Source: a virus
Strand: one strand, 5' to 3'
IMG/VR virus record: IMGVR_UViG_3300008050_005475
Location: 1 to 22,272 of that record
DNA length: 22,272 nucleotides
A model generated the notes under the pieces. It worked only from the letters and a program-made list of their open reading frames with translations, had not been told where the DNA came from and ran no database searches. The translations under genes and the position numbers were made by a program. Positions 692 through 22,161 of the stretch are shown piece after piece (within the stretch, counting starts at the first letter, position 1; each line of letters starts with the position of its first letter).

Positions 692-871
692 ATGAGCACT
701 GAAGAAAGGAAGCGCGGACGAGGACGCCCATCGAAGGGGCGACCTGAGCGGATCAGCGTGGCGTTCTCAACCACGAGGCTCGAAGCGCTGACAGAGGCCG
801 CGCTTGGCGCTGGAGCGTCAGTGGTCGATATCATCAACAACATGTTGGACAGAGCAGGAGTCACGAAATGA
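692..871 (+). CDS. AT-hook plus ribbon-helix-helix DNA-binding protein (59 aa)
   Basis: This short frame starts at an ATG eight bases after AGGAGG. Residues 6-18 are strongly basic and contain AT-hook-like cores (RKRGRGRPSKGRP). From about residue 20 a predicted beta strand (RISVAFS) leads into a helix (TTRLEALTEAALGAGA), a turn, and a second helix (SVVDIINNMLDRA). This is the MetJ/Arc-type ribbon-helix-helix layout, a fold that binds operator DNA as a dimer through the strand. It is the first gene of the rightward operon and sits 48 bases from the palindrome at 631-643, so autoregulation is plausible. Its stop overlaps the next start as ATGA. The fold is assigned from pattern only. Confidence 0.7.
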   Translation: MSTEERKRGRGRPSKGRPERISVAFSTTRLEALTEAALGAGASVVDIINNMLDRAGVTK

Positions 872-1143
872 GCACCATCGTAGCCTTGGCACCTGTCCGA
901 GACCTAAACGCCCGTGCCCGAGTCACCCCGGAGCAGCTCATAGAGCGCGCAGAAGCGTACAGCCGAGAGGGCTTCTACGCGCTTGAGGCTGTGACTCTGC
1001 GCTCCGCCATGATCGCCGCCTGCTCAGAGATGGAAGACCTGATGCTCGGGGCGCTGCCCCCAGAAGGGCTCTCCCGAGCGAAGGCTCTCGCCAGCTCGAT
1101 CCTCAGCATCGAGATCAAGCTGAGCATAATGGGGGCGGCATGA
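868..1143 (+). CDS. Hypothetical small helical protein (91 aa)
   Basis: The start overlaps the stop of the DNA-binding gene as ATGA and the stop overlaps the next start the same way, which fixes both ends. The protein looks all-helical. Residues 20-35 (TPEQLIERAEAYSREGFY) and the stretch from residue 38 onward are Ala/Leu/Glu-rich and could form short helices. There is no signal peptide, metal-binding motif or clear membrane segment. I recognise no family. Confidence 0.65.
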   Translation: MSTIVALAPVRDLNARARVTPEQLIERAEAYSREGFYALEAVTLRSAMIAACSEMEDLMLGALPPEGLSRAKALASSILSIEIKLSIMGAA

Positions 1144-1541
1144 GCTTGACCACGGAACAGATAATCAGAGCTATGAGCTTGCCTGGCTACCAGCGCCGTG
1201 AGGGCATGGTGTACCGGGATTGCAGCGGGAGCACCTACACTCTCGCGGGTGTCGAGTCCGACGGTAACGACTTCTGGCTCCCTTCTTACGAGGAGAAGAT
1301 CAGACGCTCCCACACGGTGGGAGTGGTCGTCGCTATCGCTGAGTCGGTGATCGATCTGAGCGACTGCAGCAACACGGGGCACCTGCTGTGGATGCTTGGT
1401 AGCCCCGCGTCCATCGTCTACCGCGAGGGCGGTGACTGCTATGCGGGGAGCAGCATGAGAAACGCGCTCGGGGACTCTGTGAATGAGGCGATCATCCTGC
1501 TCGCGCTGGAGTTGGGCGAGTGGCCGGGAGGTCTAAAATGA
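1140..1541 (+). CDS. Hypothetical protein (133 aa)
   Basis: ATGA overlaps at both ends place this firmly in the operon. The protein has an N-terminal helical stretch (SLTTEQIIRAMSLPGY), a central part with many Ser, Thr and aromatic residues, a hydrophobic segment near residues 58-70 (TVGVVVAIAESVID), and a C-terminal helix (NEAIILLALELGEW). The hydrophobic segment is too short and broken to be a confident membrane helix. No family is recognised. Confidence 0.65.
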   Translation: MSLTTEQIIRAMSLPGYQRREGMVYRDCSGSTYTLAGVESDGNDFWLPSYEEKIRRSHTVGVVVAIAESVIDLSDCSNTGHLLWMLGSPASIVYREGGDCYAGSSMRNALGDSVNEAIILLALELGEWPGGLK

Positions 1542-1642
1542 GGAGCAAGGGAGAGGCTTTCTGGGACGGCTGTTTCACAGTGATCGCCATGTTGATCGCT
1601 GTGGCGGTGTTCGCCCTCTGGTTCTTCGGAGTAGCGCCATGA
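1538..1642 (+). CDS. 34-aa single-pass membrane peptide
   Basis: This frame is short but fits the operon exactly: its ATG overlaps the upstream stop as ATGA (1538-1541), and its own stop overlaps the next start as ATGA (1639-1642). The peptide begins MRSKGEAFWDG and continues into an uninterrupted hydrophobic run of about 20 residues (FTVIAMLIAVAVFALWFFGV). It ends two residues after that run. A basic N-terminus before a single hydrophobic helix fits a short inner-membrane peptide. Membrane-acting roles such as holin-like, superinfection or host-takeover functions are all possible; none is shown by the sequence. Confidence 0.65.
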   Translation: MRSKGEAFWDGCFTVIAMLIAVAVFALWFFGVAP

Positions 1643-1989
1643 TGATCCGGTCAGACGAGAAATGGGGCGACCAGGAGCGGCGCTCTTTCATGGCTCAGAT
1701 CGCAGAGCCAGACATCGCGATGGAGTACGAGCATCTCGCCAGCGCGTGTGAGGCGTTGGGCTGGCCCAGGCCCTCATGGATGCTTGTCCACGACCGCAGG
1801 TGGCTGGTGAGCCTCCTCCGCTGGAAGAACACCACGAGCCCCATGCGGATCATGCGTGAGGCGGTCGAGCACGTCTACAAGGTCGCGGTGCAGGCCGCAG
1901 ATCTTGACGCCATCGCCTACAACGCCGGATTTGACGCGGGCTACGCCGAGGGCGTCTCAGACCAGCCCACATCGAGGAGGAAGATATGA
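1639..1989 (+). CDS. Hypothetical protein (116 aa) with a C-terminal Gly/Ala helix motif
   Basis: Starts at ATGATG overlapping the stop of the membrane peptide, and ends in an ATGA overlap with the next gene. The body is Trp-rich (WGDQER, LGWPRPSWMLVHDRRWLVSLLRW) and helical. Near the C-terminus the AYNAGFDAGYAEG segment has the evenly spaced Gly/Ala and aromatic pattern seen at the start of Rmf/CrpP-type domains, but no Pro-Tyr core or second aromatic Gly motif follows, so I do not assign that domain. No other family is recognised. Confidence 0.65.
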   Translation: MMIRSDEKWGDQERRSFMAQIAEPDIAMEYEHLASACEALGWPRPSWMLVHDRRWLVSLLRWKNTTSPMRIMREAVEHVYKVAVQAADLDAIAYNAGFDAGYAEGVSDQPTSRRKI

Positions 1990-2381
1990 GCAGATACATG
2001 GTAGAAGCGAACTGGTACAACGACACCCACGCCACCTTCATGGGTGGGCGCGGCCCAACGGTGCGCTGGTTGGAGATCGACTGGGACGACGGGACCACTA
2101 CGAGCCATGAAGATGACGCTGTGGTCACGACCTCGGCCGGCATGTTTCTGGGCGACGAACAGATCTGGCCCCCGACAGACGAGGCCCTGCTGAAGCACAT
2201 ACCAGAAGGCACAATGAGGAGAGCTCTCGCAGACGGCGCGGCAGCGTTCGCGGACGGTCTTCCCGTGTCGAGCAACCCCCACGATGGGGGCGCTGAATTT
2301 GCTTGGATCACGGGCTGGTGGAGAGCACAGTTTGAGTCTTGGAGAGTGAGCACAGAGCGGGCAGCCGAGGAGGCACCATGA
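1986..2381 (+). CDS. Protein with C-terminal Rmf/CrpP-like domain (131 aa)
   Basis: Bounded by ATGA overlaps on both sides. Residues 1-75 look like a small beta domain with many Trp and Asp residues (RWLEIDWDDGTTTSHEDD). Residues 80-115 follow the pattern of ribosome modulation factor and CrpP proteins: a Gly/Ala helix with 'DG' (LADGAAAFADG), 'LPVSSNPH' in place of the usual Asn/Cys-Pro-Tyr, and an aromatic 'W-x-x-G-W' end (FAWITGWWRAQ). Rmf binds and dimerises ribosomes in enterobacteria; CrpP-like proteins are widespread small proteins often found on mobile elements. The fusion to an N-terminal domain is unusual for Rmf, which is about 55 residues. The domain call is by eye; function is unknown. 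Confidence 0.6.
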   Translation: MSRYMVEANWYNDTHATFMGGRGPTVRWLEIDWDDGTTTSHEDDAVVTTSAGMFLGDEQIWPPTDEALLKHIPEGTMRRALADGAAAFADGLPVSSNPHDGGAEFAWITGWWRAQFESWRVSTERAAEEAP

Positions 2382-2785
2382 GCATGACTATTCGACAACA
2401 GGCAGTGCGCTGGCAGGAAGGGCGCCGGGCTCGTCGCGACGGGGAGCCGAGAAAGAGCCCCTATCCCACAGACCGGGAGAGCGATCTGTGCTGGCTCGCG
2501 GGCTACGACAACAGCCCTCGACTGCAGACCAGCAAGGGCGGCTCAGGGCGCCCCAAGGTTACCACGCGGGCTGATGCGCTCGCCAGCGCGCTCAAGATCA
2601 TCCAGGGGCGCGGAAAAACCGTCAACGTCTTCCACGGCGGCCCGAGCAAGCCCGAGGGGCGCAGGGTGCGCCTGACCTCCGAGGAGGTCTCGGAGCGGCT
2701 CTCGGAGGATGTCGCACGGGACCTGCGGGGCAAGGTCTGGACCGAGCAGGAGACAGCCGACAACACAACAGGAGGTGAGAAATGA
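2378..2785 (+). CDS. Protein with N-terminal Rmf/CrpP-like domain (135 aa)
   Basis: The frame is open further upstream, but the ATG at 2378 is preferred: it overlaps the previous stop as ATGA and follows GAGGAGG. Residues 9-45 match the Rmf/CrpP layout: basic Gly/Ala helix (WQEGRRARRDGEP), the Pro-Tyr core (SPYPTDRESD) and the closing aromatic-Gly motif (CWLAGYDNSP). The rest is polar and basic, with a Gly/Ser linker near residue 52, a basic stretch, and a C-terminal helix rich in Glu and Arg (LTSEEVSERLSEDVARDLRG). The domain lies at the N-terminus here and at the C-terminus of the preceding gene. Ribosome binding is a family-level possibility only. Confidence 0.65.
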   Translation: MSMTIRQQAVRWQEGRRARRDGEPRKSPYPTDRESDLCWLAGYDNSPRLQTSKGGSGRPKVTTRADALASALKIIQGRGKTVNVFHGGPSKPEGRRVRLTSEEVSERLSEDVARDLRGKVWTEQETADNTTGGEK

Positions 2786-3321
2786 GTGTATATATGGTAT
2801 TCGATGTCGAGAGCATCGGGCTGCACGGCGAGGGGTTCGCGTGGGGCGCTGTGATCGTAGACAGTGACGGCAACACTCTGCAGGAGGCGGAGGCCTACTG
2901 TGACCCAGGCTTAGCAAGAGGCACGAGCAGCTCGCATGAGTGGGTGAGGAAAAATGTCACCTTCAGCGATTCCGCCCGCCGAATGTACTCAGTGAGCGCG
3001 GTACGTCAGGCGTTCTGGAGCCTATGGGCGAAATGGAAAAAGCTAGGCGCCACGCTCGCTGCGGACTGTTGTTGGCCTGTTGAGGCTCGGTTTCTGGCCG
3101 CCTGCGTGGACGACCTGCACGCCAGCCGAGAGTGGGAAGGCCCCTACCCGCTCCTTGAGATCTCCACCGTCCTACTGTGTGCAGGACAAGGCCCGCTTGC
3201 CGTCTACGGCAGGCTCCCTTCAGAGGTGCCAGCCCACAGCGCGCTTTCCGACGCGCGGCAGAGTGCGCGACTTCTCCTTGAGGCGCTGAGCCGGACCAGC
3301 GCATGGCACGACGGTGGTTGA
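2782..3321 (+). CDS. DEDDh 3'-5' exonuclease, DnaQ/RNase T superfamily (179 aa)
   Basis: The three exonuclease motifs can be read in order. Motif I is VFDVES with Asp8 and Glu10. Motif II is AADCCWPVEARFLAA with Asp95. Motif III is AHSALSDARQSA with His152 and Asp157. These residues bind two metal ions and remove nucleotides from 3' ends of DNA or RNA. At 179 residues it is a single stand-alone domain, similar in length to oligoribonuclease or RNase T. The start overlaps the previous stop as ATGA. Possible roles are nucleotide salvage from host nucleic acid, replication support or RNA turnover; the substrate cannot be told from sequence. Confidence 0.85.
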   Translation: MSVYMVFDVESIGLHGEGFAWGAVIVDSDGNTLQEAEAYCDPGLARGTSSSHEWVRKNVTFSDSARRMYSVSAVRQAFWSLWAKWKKLGATLAADCCWPVEARFLAACVDDLHASREWEGPYPLLEISTVLLCAGQGPLAVYGRLPSEVPAHSALSDARQSARLLLEALSRTSAWHDGG

Positions 3322-3547
3322 GCTCGTCCACTACTGCGCGCGCCCGTCGGTGGACAGCGAGGGGAAGCAGTGGGAGTACTCGCCGGTCCCTTGCGATCCG
3401 CCCGATGGTCACGACGATCCGCCCGTGGTCGTGGACACGGATCCCGAGGCGGTGACCTGCCCTGAGTGCCGAGGATCCGAGCAGTGGAGAGCAGAGCGCT
3501 GGATCCCTATGCCGACGAGCGGGCGACAGCGGGCGCTGTTCGGGTGA
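3314..3547 (+). CDS. Small Cys-containing protein, possible half zinc ribbon (77 aa)
   Basis: A GTG start at 3314 lies inside the end of the exonuclease gene (8-base overlap), so translation is probably coupled; no ATG is available in frame. The protein has His-Tyr-Cys near residue 7 and a CPEC knuckle near residue 50 (AVTCPECRGSEQW), with an acidic Pro-rich stretch between (PPDGHDDPPVVVDTDPE). One CxxC with a single distant His/Cys pair could bind zinc alone or as a dimer. No family is recognised. It is the last gene of the operon; its stop lies 5 bases from the stop of the opposing late operon. Confidence 0.6.
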   Translation: MVELVHYCARPSVDSEGKQWEYSPVPCDPPDGHDDPPVVVDTDPEAVTCPECRGSEQWRAERWIPMPTSGRQRALFG

Positions 3548-6271: not shown

Positions 6272-6794
6272 GGTGTGTCGCCTCTTTTTGTAGGTGGTCG
6301 AAAAGCTCAACCCCTGCAGGGAGTGTAGCCGCCAGCCGCGCGGCGCGCATGGGGGAGATCCCCAACTTCGCGGCGCAGCCCTCGATCGTCCTCGGCTTAT
6401 AGCCGCCCGACCGGCCTCGACCAGACCTGCCCCGGCGAGACCGGAGCGCTGCAGCCTTGATCCCTTCTGGGGAAAGATCTGCTGCAGGTGGGTCGATCTC
6501 GAACGCGACGTAGGAATTCCGCCCGCCGCGCCCCGGCTTGACCCGCACGCTGATCTCAGAGTCTCGCCCGCTATAGAGCGCCTTGCGCCGCTGCAGCAGC
6601 CATTTGAGCCTGATCCGATCCTCGTCAGACCCATTGAAGCGCATGGTTCCAACCATCCCGAGCGGGCGGCCCCACCCGCGTGCCACCGGCTTGAGAGAGT
6701 CAGGGTAGATCTCCTCGAGCTCAGCCTCGATCTCGATGATCTCCAGAGCGAAGCGCTGAGGGGGATCGCCTCTAAGATGACGGTCTCTGCTCAT
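6237..6794 (-). CDS. Basic protein with possible helix-turn-helix, in tail module (185 aa)
   Basis: The ATG at 6794 overlaps the tail tube stop as ATGA; a longer reading from 6824 would run into that gene and is rejected. The N-terminus is helical and acidic (LEIIEIEAELEEIYPD). Around residues 118-134 there is an Arg/Gly-rich stretch (RSRRGRSGRGRSGGYKPR). Residues 135-157 read TIEGCAAKLGISPMRAARLA, the spacing of a helix-turn-helix (an Ala-Ala-x-Leu-Gly-Ile-Ser core). That is odd for a tail gene: it may be a small regulator or a nucleic-acid-binding accessory protein. The last 35 bases overlap the G gene. Function unknown. Confidence 0.55.
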   Translation of the reverse strand: MSRDRHLRGDPPQRFALEIIEIEAELEEIYPDSLKPVARGWGRPLGMVGTMRFNGSDEDRIRLKWLLQRRKALYSGRDSEISVRVKPGRGGRNSYVAFEIDPPAADLSPEGIKAAALRSRRGRSGRGRSGGYKPRTIEGCAAKLGISPMRAARLAATLPAGVELFDHLQKEATHHAPTKEGPSSD

Positions 6795-7294
6795 GTGAGG
6801 GTAGGCCGCACAGCAGAGTGACATGTCCAGTTGACGGTGATCGTGTCGGGATCGCCGTCAGCCATCACATAGTCAAATGTGACATCTGCAAATGTCGCGG
6901 TATGGTCCGCAGCATCGCCGTGATCGGTTCCTTCGATCGTCCACTTCAGATCGTAGGCCATCACCTCAGCGCTTGCGCCGAGCGTGCTCACCCAAGTCGA
7001 GCCGACGTGCCCGCTTTGGTTCAGGATGTCCATAAGGCACGCCGCTGTGGCGTCTGTCAGATCGCGGAGGTAGACCGTGAAAGATCCGGTCGCGATCTGG
7101 TCGTCGCCGTAGCGGACGTTTGAACCCAGGACGCCACGGTCTAGGATGTCGATACGTATCTCTCCTGGCACGGTAGCCGAGAAATCGCCCACCTCGAGAG
7201 AGATGTCTAGGTCGTTTCCGCCGCCGAAACCGCCGCCGTCTGCGATCGAGATCAGCCCGTCGCGCTTGGTCTTCACCACTGTAGATACGGCCAT
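6791..7294 (-). CDS. Probable major tail (tube) protein (167 aa)
   Basis: Starts 8 bases after a strong GGAGG. The sequence is compact, acidic and beta-rich: the N-terminal half has paired strands (DLDISLEVGDFSATV, EIRIDILDRG), followed by one helix (LRDLTDATAACLMDILNQSG) and a C-terminal beta part (TFADVTFDYVMADG, TITVNWTC). Strand-helix-strand and about 170 residues are the form of tail tube subunits, which stack as hexameric rings around the tape measure. It directly precedes the 185-aa gene and chaperones, as tube genes do. The identification rests on fold-like pattern and synteny, and its position downstream of the tape measure is unusual. Confidence 0.55.
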   Translation of the reverse strand: MAVSTVVKTKRDGLISIADGGGFGGGNDLDISLEVGDFSATVPGEIRIDILDRGVLGSNVRYGDDQIATGSFTVYLRDLTDATAACLMDILNQSGHVGSTWVSTLGASAEVMAYDLKWTIEGTDHGDAADHTATFADVTFDYVMADGDPDTITVNWTCHSAVRPTLT

Positions 7295-7333
7295 TTTACA
7301 GCCTCCATGTGAGTATCTGTGAGAGTGTCAATG

Positions 7334-9028
7334 TCATTGTAACCGAGCAGGCTCGAGCCACCACATGCCTACCTCTATGCCGCCCGCTACGGGGGTGATA
7401 GAGTCGATGTGTGCGACCTGCTCAGAGACGCTCAGATCTGCGTCAGAGAACGCCACCGCATCCCCCGGCCGCAGGTATGCAAGGCGCTCGCTCAAGAGCA
7501 CCCCGACCCGTCGGCGGGGGAAGCTGAGCATGCGCGCCTGCCAACCCAGGATGATCTCTGCGCTGGCCTGATCGTAGATATAGGATGTCTCGATCGTGCT
7601 CTCGCGCACCCCCCAAGCCCCCACACTCTGAGAGCGCGCACACCAGGGGTTAGGCAGGACAGCAGGATCTGCCGCTTCGACAGCGGAGCGGATCCCGGTC
7701 AGGGTCCGGTACTGACTAAAATTCCCGTTCGAGCCGTTCGGCGCAAAGCTCAGCGTCAGCCGGTTGACCACCTCGTCAGAGCCGCTCATGGACACAGGGG
7801 TGATCCGTGCAGCGTTGCGCCCCACGTCGATGCGCGCCACAGCATCAGAGACCTGCGCACCGAGCTGCCACACGGCCACATAGAGCCCATCAGGCCCCCA
7901 GACAGGAGAGCAGGGGAGCAGGGGCAGGATAGAACTGCTCAGCCACTCCCAAGGGCTCACAGCGGCATTGATATAGCCGTCGATCTTGATGCTGCTCAAG
8001 ATACTCAGCCGGGGGATCATCGCGTCATCTACACGCAGCCCAGACTGAGCCAGCGCCCAGCGGATCACATGGTCTGCTCTGCGCAGCGTCCCAGGCCCGT
8101 AGGGGTCAGACATGCCGCCGCCGCTCGCAGGCAGCCACGACGCCCAGAGCTCATCCCCCTCGTCAGGTCTATCGCTCGAGGTCGTCAGGATGTAAGAGAA
8201 CGCCTGCCCTAATTTATCCTTGGAGGTCTTGACGGTGGTAGACGCGACGGTCTTAGATCTGTCTGTGACGTTCCAGACCTTGCACGCCGTAGCCTCGACA
8301 GGCCCACCGCTGATCATGATGATGTGATCGGTGTTCGTCGGCGCGTCTGACGTGAGCTCGACATACAGCGCGGGAGAGCCAGGGATCTGAGACCCCCACT
8401 CTGGGGCTGGGGTCTCGACAGGCACACCAGATCCAGGGTAGCCGATCACGATCGGATAGATCGTCCCGTCGATGTTTGGATCTCTCCCTATCGACGCGCC
8501 CACATAGGCAGGCTCAGGGGAGCGCTCCCCAGACGCGCGGGGGAAGGTCGCGCTAGTGGAGGCCCACGTTGACGGGATGATCAGGGCGGGATCAGAACCG
8601 GGATCCTCGCTCACTGCGAAGCTGAAGATCTCGCCAGCGCCGCCCCACATGGGCTCATCGACGTATCCCCGCAGCAGCACCTTCCGATCTTCCCATTCCT
8701 GCTCTGGCCAGATCCGGCTGATCTCAGCGGTGGCAGAGTAGATGCTGTGCCCCGACCGCAGCAGCGCTGCGATCTCGACGGTTACAACCAGGTCCAGCGA
8801 TACCGATCGGGGGGATATGTCGCCAGAGAAGATCGCGACCTGCTCAGAGAGAGGCCCGATAGCCAGCCCTGGCAGGAAGCGCCGATCCGACGCCCCAGGG
8901 GCTCGCGACGAGACCACCACAGCGCCGCCGTCCGTGTACCGCAAGATCTGCCCACCGATAGAGAGCTCCACCACGACGGAGGACGGCCCATTACGGAGAG
9001 CCTCGATAGTCGGTCTGACCGTGCTCAT
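7334..9028 (-). CDS. Tail-tip/baseplate hub protein (564 aa)
   Basis: The start overlaps the stop of the 1095-aa gene as ATGA. The N-terminal part is beta-rich with several repeated short strands (VVVELSIGGQILRYTDGG, SVSLDLVVTVEIAALLRSG). The central part contains YPIVIGYPGSG and a helix (ADHVIRWALAQSGL). The C-terminal part ends RRRVGVLLSERLAYLRPGDA with the 'RPGD' turn followed by a strand and a hydrophobic end, a layout common in hub proteins that cap the tube (gp27- or Tal-like). No peptidase or glycosidase motif is seen. The length fits hub proteins of siphoviruses. A precise family is not assigned. Confidence 0.6.
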   Translation of the reverse strand: MSTVRPTIEALRNGPSSVVVELSIGGQILRYTDGGAVVVSSRAPGASDRRFLPGLAIGPLSEQVAIFSGDISPRSVSLDLVVTVEIAALLRSGHSIYSATAEISRIWPEQEWEDRKVLLRGYVDEPMWGGAGEIFSFAVSEDPGSDPALIIPSTWASTSATFPRASGERSPEPAYVGASIGRDPNIDGTIYPIVIGYPGSGVPVETPAPEWGSQIPGSPALYVELTSDAPTNTDHIIMISGGPVEATACKVWNVTDRSKTVASTTVKTSKDKLGQAFSYILTTSSDRPDEGDELWASWLPASGGGMSDPYGPGTLRRADHVIRWALAQSGLRVDDAMIPRLSILSSIKIDGYINAAVSPWEWLSSSILPLLPCSPVWGPDGLYVAVWQLGAQVSDAVARIDVGRNAARITPVSMSGSDEVVNRLTLSFAPNGSNGNFSQYRTLTGIRSAVEAADPAVLPNPWCARSQSVGAWGVRESTIETSYIYDQASAEIILGWQARMLSFPRRRVGVLLSERLAYLRPGDAVAFSDADLSVSEQVAHIDSITPVAGGIEVGMWWLEPARLQ

Positions 9029-16226: not shown

Positions 16227-16406
16227 TCAGTCGGTGTCTTTCTTCACGCCGTGATCCACCTTGATTACGCCCGCGTTGACTTTGCGATCAAACCGCTGCG
16301 CCTGCTCGACGCCGACCTTGTGAGCATACTCAGGAGCGGCCCCGTTGCGGATCAGGTTCCGCACAAAAGCGTTCTTCCTATCTCGGATAGACTGACGCTC
16401 ACCCAT
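16227..16406 (-). CDS. Small hypothetical protein (59 aa) in head-tail region
   Basis: The ATG at 16406 gives MGERQSIRDRKNAFVRNLIR and a predominantly helical, basic protein (Arg/Lys-rich at both ends, ending DHGVKKDTD). A longer reading from 16466 would overlap the preceding gene almost entirely. It overlaps the 222-aa gene by 8 bases and is followed 9 bases later by the adaptor gene. No family is recognised; a small head or connector accessory is plausible. Confidence 0.5.
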   Translation of the reverse strand: MGERQSIRDRKNAFVRNLIRNGAAPEYAHKVGVEQAQRFDRKVNAGVIKVDHGVKKDTD

Positions 16407-17067
16407 GAGGCACCGCCAGATCTGTCTGAGGCTCGAGGACGGACACGCCGCGCTGAGAGCGCTCAAACGCGACCCTCAGACGCTCGATCTGCTTGGCGAC
16501 GAGATCATAAGCGCGCCTGTTCGCGATCTTGGTGAGGTCCTTCGCTCCGCGCCGGTTGAGCTCACTCTCTTTCATGCCGATCATGAATTCGATCAGCTCT
16601 ACAGTCGGCTCAGCGATGATCCGGCGGCGCAGTAGATCGCGCAGGAATTCCATGTAGCGCGCCTGCCCCTCGGCCTGCTTCGACCAGCGGACGACGTTCC
16701 CTTGCTGTGTGGGGGTCTCGAAGACAGAGAAGTGCACAAGACCCTCACGGCCCTCGACCGCTGTCAGGTAGCCGTCATCCCCGAGCTCGGGAAATGACTG
16801 TAGCTCCAAGACCTGCCAGCCGTTTTTCGCTGCGCCGACGCGCGCGAGGTGGTCTGAGCCGTTGGCGTGCACGCCGTTGACTCCAGGCTCAAGGACCATC
16901 TTGCCGAGCTGGGGCAGGAGCTCGCCGTGCTCACCGCAGATATGGAACCGCTCGGGGTGATGCGTCCATCGGAAAGGCGGCGACGAAGGCGCGTTGAGTA
17001 GGTTCTTTGCGTTGGCGCGCCGAGAGATCGGAACGCGAGCGAATTGATCTTGGATCTGTGAAGGCAT
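16399..17067 (-). CDS. Hypothetical head-region protein (222 aa)
   Basis: First gene after the capsid terminator, starting at an ATG with AGGA upstream (MPSQIQDQFARVPISRRANA). The N-terminal half contains His/Gly/Cys residues (RWTHHPERFHICGEHGELLP, then VNGVHANGSDH), which could bind a metal. The C-terminal half is helical and basic (YMEFLRDLLRRRIIAEPTVE, MIGMKESELNRRGAKDL, YDLVAKQIERLRVAFERS). Position suggests a capsid-associated or connector protein. I recognise no family. Translation must rely on readthrough or on another promoter, because a strong terminator lies directly upstream. Confidence 0.6.
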   Translation of the reverse strand: MPSQIQDQFARVPISRRANAKNLLNAPSSPPFRWTHHPERFHICGEHGELLPQLGKMVLEPGVNGVHANGSDHLARVGAAKNGWQVLELQSFPELGDDGYLTAVEGREGLVHFSVFETPTQQGNVVRWSKQAEGQARYMEFLRDLLRRRIIAEPTVELIEFMIGMKESELNRRGAKDLTKIANRRAYDLVAKQIERLRVAFERSQRGVSVLEPQTDLAVPHG

Positions 17068-17086
17068 GTGTCGTCCTGGGTGAGAG

Positions 17087-17151
17087 AAAAAAAGGGGAGG
17101 GCATAGAGGGGCTACCGGGACGACAAAGAACGACGCCCCTAAAGCCCCCCC
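17087..17151 (-). terminator. Strong intrinsic terminator after the capsid gene
   Basis: On the minus strand GCCCCCCC at 17144-17151 (read as GGGGGGGC) pairs with GGGGAGGGC at 17094-17102 with one bulged base, giving 8 base pairs. Inside, AGGGGC and GCCCCT (17107-17112 with 17135-17140) add a second stem. A run of seven T bases (17093-17087) follows immediately. It begins about 8 bases after the capsid stop. Confidence 0.85.
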
Positions 17152-17158
17152 AGCAAGA

Positions 17159-18076
17159 CTACCGGTCGGTGATCATCGACACGCCCAGGCTGTCCTGAGC
17201 CTGCGCAGCACCAAAGTAATAGGATCCGACGATCTTCACAGTGTCCGCCGAGATGTCCTCGTCGATGCGAACCACGACCTTGCGAGCCATCAGGATCGCG
17301 TTGTTCAGTGCAGACTGAACGGTCTGCGTGGCATCAGCCCAGCCGATCGCACCACGGACGAACATGCCGCCAGCAGAGTCCGCGCCCGCGTTCGCGGTAG
17401 GCACGAGCGAAGAGGTGAGGAAGTCGATCCCGTTCCACCGACCCTTGTAGCCGGGGGAGCCGAACATCAGCATCTCGGCAGAAGGGGTCTGGAACTGGAT
17501 CACGCCGGTCTCTGCTCTCAGGCTCGACTGAAAGTCGGTGAACTGCTGAGGATAGAGCAGGCACACAGGCTGCCCGGACGCGTTCGCGTTGGTGAGGGCG
17601 AATTGCGCCTCAAACACGTTGTCCACGTCCAGATCGACGGTGGTTGTACCGACCGTTGCCGTGAAGCCGCCGACGAGAGCCGCGACGACCTCGACGAAGC
17701 GAAGCGCCGCCGCCATGATCATCTGCTGAGCCCAGAGCCCGACCTGGGTCGAGTTGATGCTGTCTGTCAGGATTGCGAGACCCGAGAGGGTGCGCTGCAG
17801 CGCCTGACGCGAGACGGTGATCTGATAGCTGTCATCGGTGATCGCCGTGTTGCTCGGGGATGCGAGCTCAGCGACCGCAGCCATGCGATCAGCGACGCCG
17901 ATCTGTCCGACCTTGGTCACGCTCGAGGCGGAGCCTGAGAGGTCGCCCTTATACATGAGGGCCTCATGCCCCCAGAGAGCGGTGCTTAGATCTGCGACGA
18001 GGATCTCAAGCGCGCGGTTCAGGTCCTCAGCGAGCCGGAGGTCTCCCAGCCCAGAATATACGATTTCGTTTGCCAT
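17159..18076 (-). CDS. Major capsid protein (305 aa)
   Basis: It follows the scaffold gene after about 100 bases and starts after GGAGACACCAAG (MANEIVYSGLGDLRLAEDLN). The protein has the size and mixed alpha/beta character of HK97-fold capsid subunits, with a long central helix region (LWAQQMIMAAALRFVEVVAA), a strand-rich part, and a C-terminal strand pair (ARKVVVRIDEDISADTVKI). No N-terminal prohead delta domain cleavage pattern is evident and no protease gene is seen, so scaffolding is by the separate upstream protein. It has its own candidate promoter and a strong terminator, consistent with the need for hundreds of copies. Identification is by size and synteny. Confidence 0.8.
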   Translation of the reverse strand: MANEIVYSGLGDLRLAEDLNRALEILVADLSTALWGHEALMYKGDLSGSASSVTKVGQIGVADRMAAVAELASPSNTAITDDSYQITVSRQALQRTLSGLAILTDSINSTQVGLWAQQMIMAAALRFVEVVAALVGGFTATVGTTTVDLDVDNVFEAQFALTNANASGQPVCLLYPQQFTDFQSSLRAETGVIQFQTPSAEMLMFGSPGYKGRWNGIDFLTSSLVPTANAGADSAGGMFVRGAIGWADATQTVQSALNNAILMARKVVVRIDEDISADTVKIVGSYYFGAAQAQDSLGVSMITDR

Positions 18077-18143
18077 CTTGGTGTCTCCATACCTCAGCCC
18101 GTTGCGCGTGTTGACGGGTAGCGACCCCGATGGCTATGTCTCC

Positions 18144-18172
18144 AATATAGGGCCGCTTGCGCAAACAAGCAA
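18144..18172 (-). promoter_or_regulatory. Candidate capsid-gene promoter
   Basis: TTGCTT (18172-18167, minus strand) and TATATT (18149-18144) are separated by 17 bases. The -10 matches five of six bases; the -35 is weaker. The promoter lies about 70 bases upstream of the capsid ATG. The -35 overlaps one arm of a short hairpin (GCTTG and CAAGC, 18155-18170). The only other sizeable gaps in the late module are the terminator region after this gene and the G-to-tail gap. Confidence 0.45.
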
Positions 18173-18175
18173 GGA

Positions 18176-18763
18176 TCAGCCCCTTGTCTTGAGGTTGAAG
18201 GCCGCCGAGAAGTCGGCATCGGTCATCGCGCTGGTGTCAGAAGGGCCGGGCGCTGGGCGGTGCAGATGAGCCCCCCGGTTCGCGGGGGGGCGCTGATACG
18301 GGGGAGCGCCGCCGCCCTGTGGGGGAGCCCCAGCGAACAAAGGCCGCAGGATAGTAGGAACACTCTCGGGCGCTTCCTTGAATGAATCGAGCCACGCGCC
18401 GAGCTCTGGTCTCCCCTCTTCAGGCAGTCGCCCATACTGCCACTCCACCGCAGCTACAGCGTCTTTGTCTGTCACGCCGTGCTGTGCGATCAGGGTGTGC
18501 CGATCGTAGCGGCTGTTAGCCGCATCGAGCTTGCCTTGTAGGGCAGTGTTCGCAGCGGTCAACGTGTCCACCGTGGCTCCGCGCTCAGTAAGCTGCTGAG
18601 CCTCAGCCCGCAGCGTCGCGACCTGCTCACGCAGGTTGTTGCGCTCGCCTACGACGGTCTGAAAGCGCTTGTATGGAACCGTCCCGGCTGGGGGATCGGC
18701 TGGAGGTGGGGTGCCCGGTGGCGGTGTTTGCGGCGGGGCGCCCTGCGGTGCGGGGGTTGTCAT
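18176..18763 (-). CDS. Scaffolding protein (195 aa)
   Basis: The start overlaps the portal stop as ATGA. Residues 1-30 are Pro-rich (PQTPPPGTPPPADPPAG). Residues 35-85 form a charged coiled coil (VVGERNNLREQVATLRAEAQ). Residues 90-135 are helical. Residues 145-172 are Pro/Gly-rich with a basic part, and the end (DADFSAAFNLKTRG) is a short amphipathic segment. Disordered, helical, charged proteins between portal and capsid are typical of phage internal scaffolds, which shape the prohead and leave before packaging. No protease Ser-His motif is visible. Confidence 0.75.
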   Translation of the reverse strand: MTTPAPQGAPPQTPPPGTPPPADPPAGTVPYKRFQTVVGERNNLREQVATLRAEAQQLTERGATVDTLTAANTALQGKLDAANSRYDRHTLIAQHGVTDKDAVAAVEWQYGRLPEEGRPELGAWLDSFKEAPESVPTILRPLFAGAPPQGGGAPPYQRPPANRGAHLHRPAPGPSDTSAMTDADFSAAFNLKTRG

Positions 18764-20238
18764 GTTGTCGTCCCTGGTCGGGTGGTCATGGAAGCGAGAT
18801 CTTCCAAGGCTTTCGCCTCGGAGAGCTCGGGGTTGAGAGTCATGTAAGCCTTGAGCGGAGTGATGAGCCCAGCGTTGGCGCGGTCGATCACATCGTCTCG
18901 AAGAGACGCGCGCTCCTCGGGGGAGAGAGGGATCCGCGTGTAGGCGATCCGGTATCCGCCCTCGGGCATCGGCTCGATCTTTCGGGCGCCTTGCATCATC
19001 TCGCCCACGCGGTTCACCATGATCGCGGTAGTGGAGACCAGCCGCTTATCGGAGACAGTGAAGGAGGGGGTGTACCTGCGCTGAGCTTTGCGCTTGCCTT
19101 CATTCGTGAGGGAGATCGCCGCTCCGCTGCGAGCTGTGCCGCCGAGCCGCTGGATATCAGATGGAGGGATCCCTGCGTCCTGTGCCAGTCGGGCCACGAG
19201 ATTCGAGAGCGTCTCTTCCAGCACGCTGACATCGGCGCCCGCGTTCCACTGCCCAATAATGGGCTGCGTGTCCGACTCGCCGATCTGCTGCAGCATCAGG
19301 ATGGTAGCAGGGTCTGCTACGATCTCCTGACGAGGGATCCCGTCCTGGGTCTCGATCCCCGCACCTGCGGGCTCGAGGTTCGCGATGTAGCGCTGGGGAA
19401 AGCTCGCGTCGCGGAAGCTGTGGAGCACCATCTGATAGAGGACAGCCACGTCGATCGTTCCATCGACGAGCTCGATACCCTCGAACGGATCGAAGGTGCG
19501 ATCTGTGAGCTGCTGCGCATGGTAGAGGACGTAGGGCAAGATCGGACGGCCGAGCAGCTCCCCGTCTTTCGGGGCCATGCGCCACTCGCGAGGGTACTCG
19601 CCCCCGGCGCGCGCGCCGTCGATGTAGTGGCCTGACAGGTCGGTCTTTCCGTCGCCTGAGAGCACCATGTAGACGGGGTGGTCCAGATCTGAGATGTCCA
19701 CTACGTCGATCGTCCAGATCTTCTTGGCCTTCTGGCCCTCAGCGACGATCGAGTCTCGCAGCCGGTACTCCTCAACCCGCACGGGAACCGACGGATTAGA
19801 GACCAGCGCCTCGGTGATCACATAGTCTGGAGCGACCGCGCGGTATCTGGGGCGCTGCTCATCAGAGACATCGACGCGCACGAAATACTCACGGATCCCG
19901 ATGCACAGCGCCTGTACCCGCTGCATCGCAGACCAGAACCCAGACATAGATATCGCGGTCGCGAGACTGCTCACATCCACCCGGTCGTGACTCACCGTCG
20001 GCTCATGATCATAGAGAACAGCGAGCTCTTGAGCTGTGGTCTTGAAGGGGTTGATGCTCAAGGTGGGCTCGCCCCAGGCGCGGGCGCGCTCAGAGCCGAC
20101 CGTCTCGATCATCCTGCGTGAAAGGTCCCTCATCCACAGGCCCTCGAGCAGCCGACGGCGGCGGCGCTGCTCGGTCCAGCGGGCAAGAATGGCAGAGTCT
20201 GTGGGCCATGGTGGCGCGGTGATCTGGTCTTGGCTCAT
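18760..20238 (-). CDS. Portal protein (492 aa)
   Basis: The ATG at 20238 lies one base after the terminase stop (TGACATG) with AGAGG upstream. A longer reading from 20307 would extend into the terminase gene. The N-terminal half is helical and Arg-rich (RWTEQRRRRRLLEGLWMRDL), with alpha/beta wing parts later. The C-terminal part has the crown-like helical region (LEETLSNLVARLAQDAGIPP, TARSGAAISLTNEGKRKAQR) resembling SPP1 gp6-type portals. Portals form a 12-subunit ring at the packaging vertex. Position directly after the large terminase and before scaffold and capsid fits. Confidence 0.85.
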   Translation of the reverse strand: MSQDQITAPPWPTDSAILARWTEQRRRRRLLEGLWMRDLSRRMIETVGSERARAWGEPTLSINPFKTTAQELAVLYDHEPTVSHDRVDVSSLATAISMSGFWSAMQRVQALCIGIREYFVRVDVSDEQRPRYRAVAPDYVITEALVSNPSVPVRVEEYRLRDSIVAEGQKAKKIWTIDVVDISDLDHPVYMVLSGDGKTDLSGHYIDGARAGGEYPREWRMAPKDGELLGRPILPYVLYHAQQLTDRTFDPFEGIELVDGTIDVAVLYQMVLHSFRDASFPQRYIANLEPAGAGIETQDGIPRQEIVADPATILMLQQIGESDTQPIIGQWNAGADVSVLEETLSNLVARLAQDAGIPPSDIQRLGGTARSGAAISLTNEGKRKAQRRYTPSFTVSDKRLVSTTAIMVNRVGEMMQGARKIEPMPEGGYRIAYTRIPLSPEERASLRDDVIDRANAGLITPLKAYMTLNPELSEAKALEDLASMTTRPGTTT

Positions 20239-20239
20239 G

Positions 20240-21700
20240 TCATCCTCTGCGGATCTTGGTGACAGGTCGTGTCCGGCGGCGACGGATGGACCACGGAGTG
20301 AGAGCATAACGCAAAGCGTCCATCACATGCCCATGTGGATCTCGAGAGCCGCCCCGGTAGCGCTTGAAGCTCTGGATCAGGCTGGTGCATCGCGGGTGGA
20401 TCTTGATGTTCCCGCGCCGTAGCTGCTTGTGGATCCAAGTGCAGCCCAGGTAGAGGCTCTTGCGTGGGTCTGATCCTTTGCCGGTCTTGGCTGTTCTGAT
20501 CGGAGGAGACAGTGCAGCGTGTCGAGGCAGCTTGAGCACCTTCACCAGCTCCGCAGAGAGTGCCTTGTTTGACTTCCTTCCGACGATATTCCGACCACCG
20601 CCATAGTGAACGATATCGCCACAAGCAAAGTCGAGAGAGCCGTTACGCCAAGCGATGCCATGCCGTGAGAGCATGTTGATGATCTCTCTCGCGTCGCGCT
20701 CGGGCGGGCTGTTCTCCTGCGCTTCGTACTCGTCGATGATGTGAACGACAGGCAGATCCCCGGTCTCATCGACCGCGATCAGGACCGCCGTCTCTGTAAA
20801 CGCCTGCGTCCCGTGATCCAAACCGAGCGAGATGTATAGATCTCCAGCGGGGACCTGGGTGCTGACGTGCTTGCTTTCATGGAAGACGGAGCCGAACATG
20901 GCATCTAAGGCCATCGCCTCCCACTCGCCGTCACACACGACCGGGCGCCACATTTCCATGGTGTCTGCGCGCTGCTCGGCTATCCACAAATCATCACACA
21001 CGGTGCCATCGATCAAGGTGCGAACGCGGCCATCCGTCAATGTGAACGCATCCTGCGTCATCATGATGTGGATGTCCTCGATCGTTCCTTTCTCACAGAG
21101 CTCGCGTAGCCAGTCGAGCGGCTCGGGCGCGTTGACTGGAGTGAGGCTCAAGGTGATCTCTCCACCTCGAGACATGACGCGCTTATTTAGCTCTCGGTAG
21201 TGGGTCGAACCGCAGGGCTCGTCGATGAGCACATGATCGTATTCCGAGCCCGACAAAGCGAGCGGTCCCTGATTCGCGGTGCGGAAGCAGATCGTGCTGC
21301 CGTCGTCGAGAATAATTGTAGGCGCGTCCTTCCCCCAACCCTTGTCATCGCGCCAGCCCGGTTGAAACTTGATCCGGTGCGGCGGCAGGAATTGCCTCAG
21401 ATACGCCTGAAGCGGAACAGACTGAGACCACGAGTAGCAGAGGATAAGCTGATCAGTGCGCCCCCTCCATCTCCAGTCAGGCCGAAACGGGTGGCCGCCC
21501 AGCGCTCGCATCGCGACATCAGCGATAGAGGCGTAAGACTTCCCCACACGGTTCCCCGTCCTCAGCAGCCTGCGCTTAGATCTGTTGTGGAGAAATCTGT
21601 CCTGCGGGTGAGTCCAGACCTGGTAGTCAAGCGGGTGCTGCTCGGCGTGAGTCTTCAGCGAGCCCGCCGCCTCGAGCAGCGAGCCGAACCCGACCGTCAT
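20240..21700 (-). CDS. terL: Terminase large subunit (486 aa)
   Basis: Start overlaps terS as ATGA. The ATPase domain has a Walker A, TGNRVGKS at residues 48-55, and Walker B, VLIDEP at 157-162, with a coupling motif LSLTPVN near 184-190. The RNase H-like nuclease half begins near residue 286 with acidic residues in LGLDHG (Asp295) and VVHIIDEY (around 318-325) and ends near HVMDALRYAL (Asp461). The protein cuts concatemeric phage DNA and drives it into the prohead through the portal. The basic C-terminus (IRRRRTRPVTKIRRG) is typical of a portal or DNA contact. All main motifs are present. Confidence 0.93.
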   Translation of the reverse strand: MTVGFGSLLEAAGSLKTHAEQHPLDYQVWTHPQDRFLHNRSKRRLLRTGNRVGKSYASIADVAMRALGGHPFRPDWRWRGRTDQLILCYSWSQSVPLQAYLRQFLPPHRIKFQPGWRDDKGWGKDAPTIILDDGSTICFRTANQGPLALSGSEYDHVLIDEPCGSTHYRELNKRVMSRGGEITLSLTPVNAPEPLDWLRELCEKGTIEDIHIMMTQDAFTLTDGRVRTLIDGTVCDDLWIAEQRADTMEMWRPVVCDGEWEAMALDAMFGSVFHESKHVSTQVPAGDLYISLGLDHGTQAFTETAVLIAVDETGDLPVVHIIDEYEAQENSPPERDAREIINMLSRHGIAWRNGSLDFACGDIVHYGGGRNIVGRKSNKALSAELVKVLKLPRHAALSPPIRTAKTGKGSDPRKSLYLGCTWIHKQLRRGNIKIHPRCTSLIQSFKRYRGGSRDPHGHVMDALRYALTPWSIRRRRTRPVTKIRRG

Positions 21701-22161
21701 GCTTTTACCAGAGCGCTGATCACCTTCTCTTTCAGCCCGGCTGGAAGGCCGTCGATGATGGAGGTGAGCGCGCTGATCTTCTGCTCCTCAGACGCGTCGC
21801 TCATGTCGCGTGCTTCCTGAGCTTTCCGGCGAGCTCTCTGCGCAGCGTTTAGCTCTGCTTCTTTCGTCGAGAGGTTCGACACAGCGACCCAGGACGAGCA
21901 AGCTCGAGCACCAGCCCGAGCGCGGCGCAGCTCGCGAAGAAGCTGAGCATCTCTATCGTCAGGATCCGCAGGGATGGAATCGACAGCCGCCTGCTCTGCG
22001 TCAAGCTGGTTCACCTTGTCCAGAAGCTGAATGATCTGCTTGTTCGCCTGAGCCGCCGGGCCAAAGCTCTCAGCAGTCAGCGCCGCGTTCTGGATTTTGT
22101 GAAGCTCCTCCATTCTCGCGAGGAGAAAGGCACGCCGGTCGGATGGGTCGAGTGTCGTCAT
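21697..22161 (-). CDS. terS: Terminase small subunit (154 aa)
   Basis: Located directly before terL with ATGA overlap, the standard order. The protein is helical throughout: residues 1-25 (PSDRRAFLLARMEELHKIQ), a second helical hairpin (AAQANKQIIQLLDKVNQLD), a basic part (LLRELRRARAGARACSSW) and a C-terminal helix (KISALTSIIDGLPAGLKEKV). Small terminases bind the packaging site as rings and pass DNA to terL; a basic helical N-terminal part and an oligomerising helical core fit. No helix-turn-helix is certain. The candidate promoter just upstream would make the transcript nearly leaderless. Confidence 0.75.
   Translation of the reverse strand: MTTLDPSDRRAFLLARMEELHKIQNAALTAESFGPAAQANKQIIQLLDKVNQLDAEQAAVDSIPADPDDRDAQLLRELRRARAGARACSSWVAVSNLSTKEAELNAAQRARRKAQEARDMSDASEEQKISALTSIIDGLPAGLKEKVISALVKA

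Follow-up and report, generated by a model that had tools for sequence, protein, structure and literature searches.

Two adjacent plus-strand genes in IMG/VR record IMGVR_UViG_3300008050_005475 encode proteins of 131 and 135 amino acids, each of which carries a domain that sequence comparison identifies as a genuine, diverged relative of the Rmf/CrpP family, which includes Rmf, a factor in bacterial ribosome hibernation. The window, meaning the whole stretch of DNA that was analyzed, is the complete record (22,272 bases). In agreement with the first-pass annotation of this DNA, both ORFs are present, and their Rmf/CrpP-like domains lie at opposite ends of the two proteins. What is new here is that one coupled operon holds two fusions in opposite orders, whose partner parts are orphans and whose net charges are opposite (-13 for the 131-aa and +7 for the 135-aa protein). 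The module itself, usually stand-alone, was already known in phages, as were Rmf fusions in public records. The earlier description of the genes as an undescribed pair is therefore fair for this arrangement but not for Rmf fusions as such, and we regard the opposite-order fusion pair as a known module in a new arrangement.

The gene for the 131-aa protein (positions 1986..2381, plus strand) encodes an orphan N-terminal part (residues ~1-73) and a C-terminal Rmf/CrpP-like domain (positions 2217..2330, plus strand; residues 78-115, RRALADGAAAFADGLPVSSNPHDGGAEFAWITGWWRAQ), which has matches to our 20-member HMM, NF041886, and RMF. The protein is strongly acidic (pI 4.4), its N-terminal part is predicted with low confidence to form mostly strands, and a deletion removes 2 residues from the loop of its domain. 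The gene for the 135-aa protein (positions 2378..2785, plus strand) has the reverse order, with an N-terminal Rmf/CrpP-like domain (positions 2411..2521, plus strand; residues 12-48, WQEGRRARRDGEPRKSPYPTDRESDLCWLAGYDNSPR), supported by the 20-member HMM and by phage and plasmid matches, followed by an orphan C-terminal part (residues ~50-135). Its length of 135 amino acids takes the ATG at 2378 as the start; in the mechanical ORF list, the gene begins at a TTG at 2339. This protein is basic (pI 10.0) with an Arg-rich first helix, and its copy of the domain lacks the Cys position of the core. As had been claimed, each domain is joined to a different partner, and neither partner part has a recognizable relative.

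Strong Shine-Dalgarno sequences precede both ATGs (CGAGGAGGAAGATATG and CCGAGGAGGCACCATG, respectively), and GC3 in the two genes (0.72 for the 131-aa gene and 0.79 for the 135-aa gene) is similar to that in the structural genes. The two genes overlap by ATGA, and the 135-aa gene overlaps the downstream dnaQ-like gene in the same way. Based on these sequence features, both genes are very likely translated.

Pfam RMF (PF04957) was the best Pfam match of both proteins, aligning to residues 77-114 of the 131-aa protein (E=0.0028) and residues 6-44 of the 135-aa protein (E=0.0011). The link to this family drawn by the first-pass annotation thus holds as a best match, but both scores (18.1 and 19.4 bits, respectively) fall below the cut-off of 27.9. 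The best NCBIfam matches were also Rmf/CrpP models: NF041886 for the 131-aa protein (E=2e-4) and NF041887 for the 135-aa protein (E=3.3e-4). Scores for the 131-aa and 135-aa proteins were 20.9 and 15.6 bits against NF041886 (cut-off 28) and 18.1 and 20.0 bits against NF041887 (cut-off 40), again below the cut-offs. Six neighboring proteins in the same scan had no Rmf/CrpP match. Because all matches to curated models are under their cut-offs, they are, taken alone, leads, and what we claim is distant domain-level relatedness rather than annotation-grade membership.

An HMM of our own was built from 20 members with both window proteins left out. The members are 12 phage proteins, 3 proteins of Serratia/Cronobacter phages, Cr30, E. 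coli RMF, and 3 Methylobacteriaceae sequences. Among 9,915 ORFs, this model identified the 135-aa protein at E=3.8e-9 and the 131-aa protein at E=6e-5, both ranking right behind known members; the next unrelated ORF had an E of 0.042. The 131-aa protein scored 21.5 bits, compared with 9.8 bits for the best shuffle, and none of 5000 shuffles scored as high. CPH and NPY variants of the core are present in phage members, and the "Asn-Pro-His or Pro-Tyr core" of the first-pass annotation is correct. When the 135-aa domain alone was used as a query, it matched six phage records (E 0.01 to 0.5), in all of which the match fell on the same Rmf-like, stand-alone gene; among plasmids, its best match carries an Rmf/CrpP annotation.

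Other approaches returned no match. E. coli RMF used as a BLAST query found nothing in phages, a sequence search of solved structures gave only noise and no RMF match, and the NCBIfam model for CrpP proper (NF033696) matched neither protein at E<=1. Single-sequence AlphaFold models made without homologs had pLDDT values of 47.9 and 46.9, which are too low for use, and Foldseek searches with these low-confidence models found nothing below E 0.1. Only in the poor model of the 131-aa protein was there a helix-gap-helix pattern, with C-terminal helices at residues 74-89 and 101-129; the RMF fold consists of two helices and a linker (PMC8778775).

The window is a fragment of a tailed phage whose minus strand encodes terminase, portal, capsid, and tape-measure-like proteins; we assigned these names from sequence and relatives. 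The pair belongs to a plus-strand cluster (positions 692..3547), convergent with the structural genes, in which the genes mostly overlap by short stretches. Upstream of the pair, the cluster encodes a 59-aa RHH-like protein (start 692), a 91-aa protein (start 868), a 133-aa protein (start 1140), a membrane peptide of ~34 aa (start 1538), and, directly upstream of the 131-aa gene, a 116-aa protein (positions 1639-1989). Downstream, the 135-aa gene is followed by a gene for a 179-aa DnaQ/DEDDh-type exonuclease-like protein (positions 2782..3321), assigned from weak PHROG/PADLOC matches, and a gene for a 77-aa protein (start 3314). Gene type and layout suggest that this cluster is early. The C-terminal end of the 116-aa protein (AYNAGFDAGYAEG) resembles the first helix of Rmf (RGYQAGIAG) and has neither the Pro loop nor the Trp-Gly end; the protein was unmatched by every Rmf model that we applied.

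A search of the viral collection for portal relatives found 110 loci, of which we kept 80 (30-47% identity). TerL, capsid, and several further structural proteins are also common to these phages. The structural module (window positions 16399-22161; loci L018-L091) belongs to a broad IMG/VR phage group, and in sequenced-phage records TerL has distant matches only. When we searched the portal protein against genomes for host assignment, there was no match. The plus-strand cluster at 692-3547 has no relatives among the portal-related phages; within it, only the DnaQ-like gene has viral relatives (n=4, 35-49% identity), and these came from a separate search and lie outside the portal relatives. 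No Rmf-like ORF was present in the fetched DNA surrounding these four relatives, nor in ~0.9 Mb from the structurally related phages, most records of which are fragments. Full-length relatives of the 131-aa or 135-aa protein were absent from IMG/VR and from 50,697 phage records, and the 135-aa protein had no homolog in species genomes. Two apparent matches to the 135-aa protein in related phages (loci L092 and L093) were discarded because each is antisense to a longer, convincing gene. No other opposite-order pair of Rmf fusions was found among the records searched, in which the related phages are represented by fragments.

Rmf-domain proteins have already been noted in phages, including two in Milano (PMC6588377). 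In our searches, Rmf-like modules recurred in phages of Streptomyces, Caulobacter, Serratia, Cronobacter, Agrobacterium, Rhizobium, Rhodococcus, and Brevundimonas; each of the 12 phage proteins that we newly read consists of the module alone (44-65 aa). Our literature search found no experimental account of the role of the phage module. Core pI among the phage members ranges from 4.1 to 11.5, with many acidic or neutral, so the basic character of RMF does not extend to the family as a whole.

Rmf-like phage genes often adjoin replication or recombination genes, as we observed at five loci and in the window itself, where the DnaQ-like exonuclease gene follows the 135-aa gene (positions 2378-3321). 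Stand-alone members are located by the gp41 helicase gene in PS2, between helicase and UvsY in Cr30, between primase/helicase and DNA polymerase I in RHph_N3_19, after a Cas4 exonuclease gene in Trogglehumper, and near primase in Bambus. A different location was observed in Streptomyces phages Alderaan, Ignacio, Tubberson, Raleigh, and Mojorita, in which a stand-alone Rmf/CrpP-like gene (53-62 aa) always occupies the same position in the head module, following a MuF/maturation-protease or minor-capsid gene and preceding the scaffold or nuclease/capsid genes. One would not expect an Rmf-like protein to have a role in capsid assembly or packaging. Given this head-module location and the wide range of pI, family membership does not imply ribosome binding.

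Fusions of the module also occur elsewhere. Neorhizobium NCHU2750_44890, a plasmid-encoded 98-aa protein, has a C-terminal RMF domain that scores above the Pfam cut-off (30.9 bits). A 387-aa Azospirillum protein (WP_137119194), encoded in a prophage-like region, has the module at residues 285-324, and its gene precedes RuvC. On Azospirillum argentinense plasmid p7 (locus L128, positions 6645-7808), the 387-aa protein is annotated only as Rmf/CrpP family, and, besides its one clear C-terminal module, it shows a second, weaker half-module (residues 143-160). We considered whether the C-terminal part of the 135-aa protein is a permuted relative of the N-terminal part of the Neorhizobium protein and rejected this, as 170 of 5000 shuffles were equally good; a second homolog (locus L129; 36 of 3000 shuffles) was not counted because of in-frame stops. 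In Serratia phage SP1 (locus L014, positions 442-744), the Rmf-like module and the small gene before it, which are separate in PS2, share one reading frame in a deposited 100-aa ORF; this ORF could be a natural fusion or the result of a sequencing indel.

The explanation that we favor, with moderate confidence in it as a whole, is that the pair encodes two small accessory proteins of an early-type phage operon, each of which would combine a diverged Rmf/CrpP helix-loop-helix module with a lineage-specific partner. The module would act as a docking piece, and the partner would decide what gets docked; the Neorhizobium (98 aa) and Azospirillum (387 aa) fusions support such an explanation. Judging from charge and adjacency, the acidic 131-aa protein and the basic 135-aa protein, made side by side, may bind one another. 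A more elaborate version, in which they form a two-component early phage factor that assembles via or beside the hairpins on the host ribosome or a nucleic-acid machine, with the orphan parts altering target activity, seems to us improbable.

Candidate targets of the module are the ribosome, mainly in the case of the basic 135-aa protein, and the DNA-metabolism machinery of the phage; we consider each unlikely, and to about the same degree. As host-ribosome modulators, the proteins would bind the 30S platform through one or both domains, as RMF does, and would damp or redirect host translation at an early stage of infection, with the partner adding its own effect. In favor, both domains are related to the RMF family, Arg is abundant in the first helix of the basic 135-aa protein, and ribosome-associated proteins, the hibernation factor HPF and ribosomal proteins among them, are encoded by other phages (PMC6375957). 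However, in E. coli RMF, residues R3, K5, and R11 are reported to function in ribosome binding and G23 and R45 in dimerization, and R3 and K5 contact 16S helix 28 (PMC8778775). Based on our alignment, the 131-aa copy keeps two of these five residues (R11 and G23) and the 135-aa copy keeps one (G23), with none of the ribosome-binding residues in register; the R45 position is Trp in the 131-aa copy and Asp in the 135-aa copy. The acidity of the 131-aa protein, the many acidic or neutral phage members, and the head-module location of the five Streptomyces-phage members also argue against ribosome binding, and the ribosome or host-takeover role that the first-pass annotation proposed for the pair is not supported by these comparisons. 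If the module instead docks on replication or recombination proteins, the pair would be accessory factors of phage DNA metabolism, a doubtful reading that fits the DnaQ-like gene directly downstream, the stand-alone members near replication genes, and the RuvC gene after the Azospirillum fusion. Small phage genes, however, commonly sit among replication genes, the Streptomyces-phage members do not, and the DnaQ-like relatives lack Rmf neighbors in the fetched DNA.

Two further alternatives concern the family assignment itself. The 135-aa domain could be the only true Rmf/CrpP domain, with the 131-aa match arising because its Gly/Ala helix, Pro loop, and Trp-Gly end resemble the family by chance. 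The 131-aa protein went undetected among the ORFs when narrower HMMs (8-9 members) were used, and its score with them was modest, with 189 of 5000 and 18 of 5000 shuffles doing as well; the loop deletion points the same way. Membership of the 131-aa protein therefore rests on broad models, and the evidence for it is clear but weaker. Nevertheless, the 20-member model, from which it was left out, gave a significant match that no shuffle equaled, NF041886 matched it as well, and other members also have NP and CPH cores; we judge a chance likeness to be improbable. Far less probable still is that the pair are CrpP-type antibiotic-modifying proteins: they share the broad family name, but the CrpP-proper model matches neither, and the presence of a crpP-like gene is reportedly not always accompanied by ciprofloxacin resistance, even within Pseudomonas (PMC7918633).

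Should the pair bind ribosomes, phages would have a further, new means of controlling host translation; should it not, the label "ribosome modulation factor" on phage genes would be misleading. Because their attached parts and neighbors differ, the fusions in the window, Azospirillum, and Neorhizobium provide handles on the role of the module.

Both copies share with E. coli RMF (PF04957) the sequence signature of the hairpin, G..A...G....P......W..G[WY]; however, R3, K5, and R45 are absent from both, and both score under the Pfam cut-off. RMF is a small basic protein of ~55 aa, whereas the fused window proteins are more than twice as long and have pI values of 4.4 and 10.0. Since the key residues are mostly absent, we file neither as a 100S-forming RMF, and from their sequences they are probably not classical members of that type. 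Stand-alone NF041887-type proteins of tailed phages, such as Serratia phage PS2_033 and Agrobacterium phage Milano_060, are small genes with the same module, and PS2_033 aligned to the 135-aa domain at 44% over 38 residues. Proteins of this type are ~44-65 aa long and have no partner part, whereas in the window the module forms one end of the 131-aa and 135-aa products of two adjacent genes. The Neorhizobium and Azospirillum fusions are like the window pair in that an Rmf/CrpP module is joined to another part, and the Azospirillum gene adjoins RuvC in a phage-type region; they differ in having other partners, a module that is C-terminal or nearly so, and no visible partner gene of opposite order.
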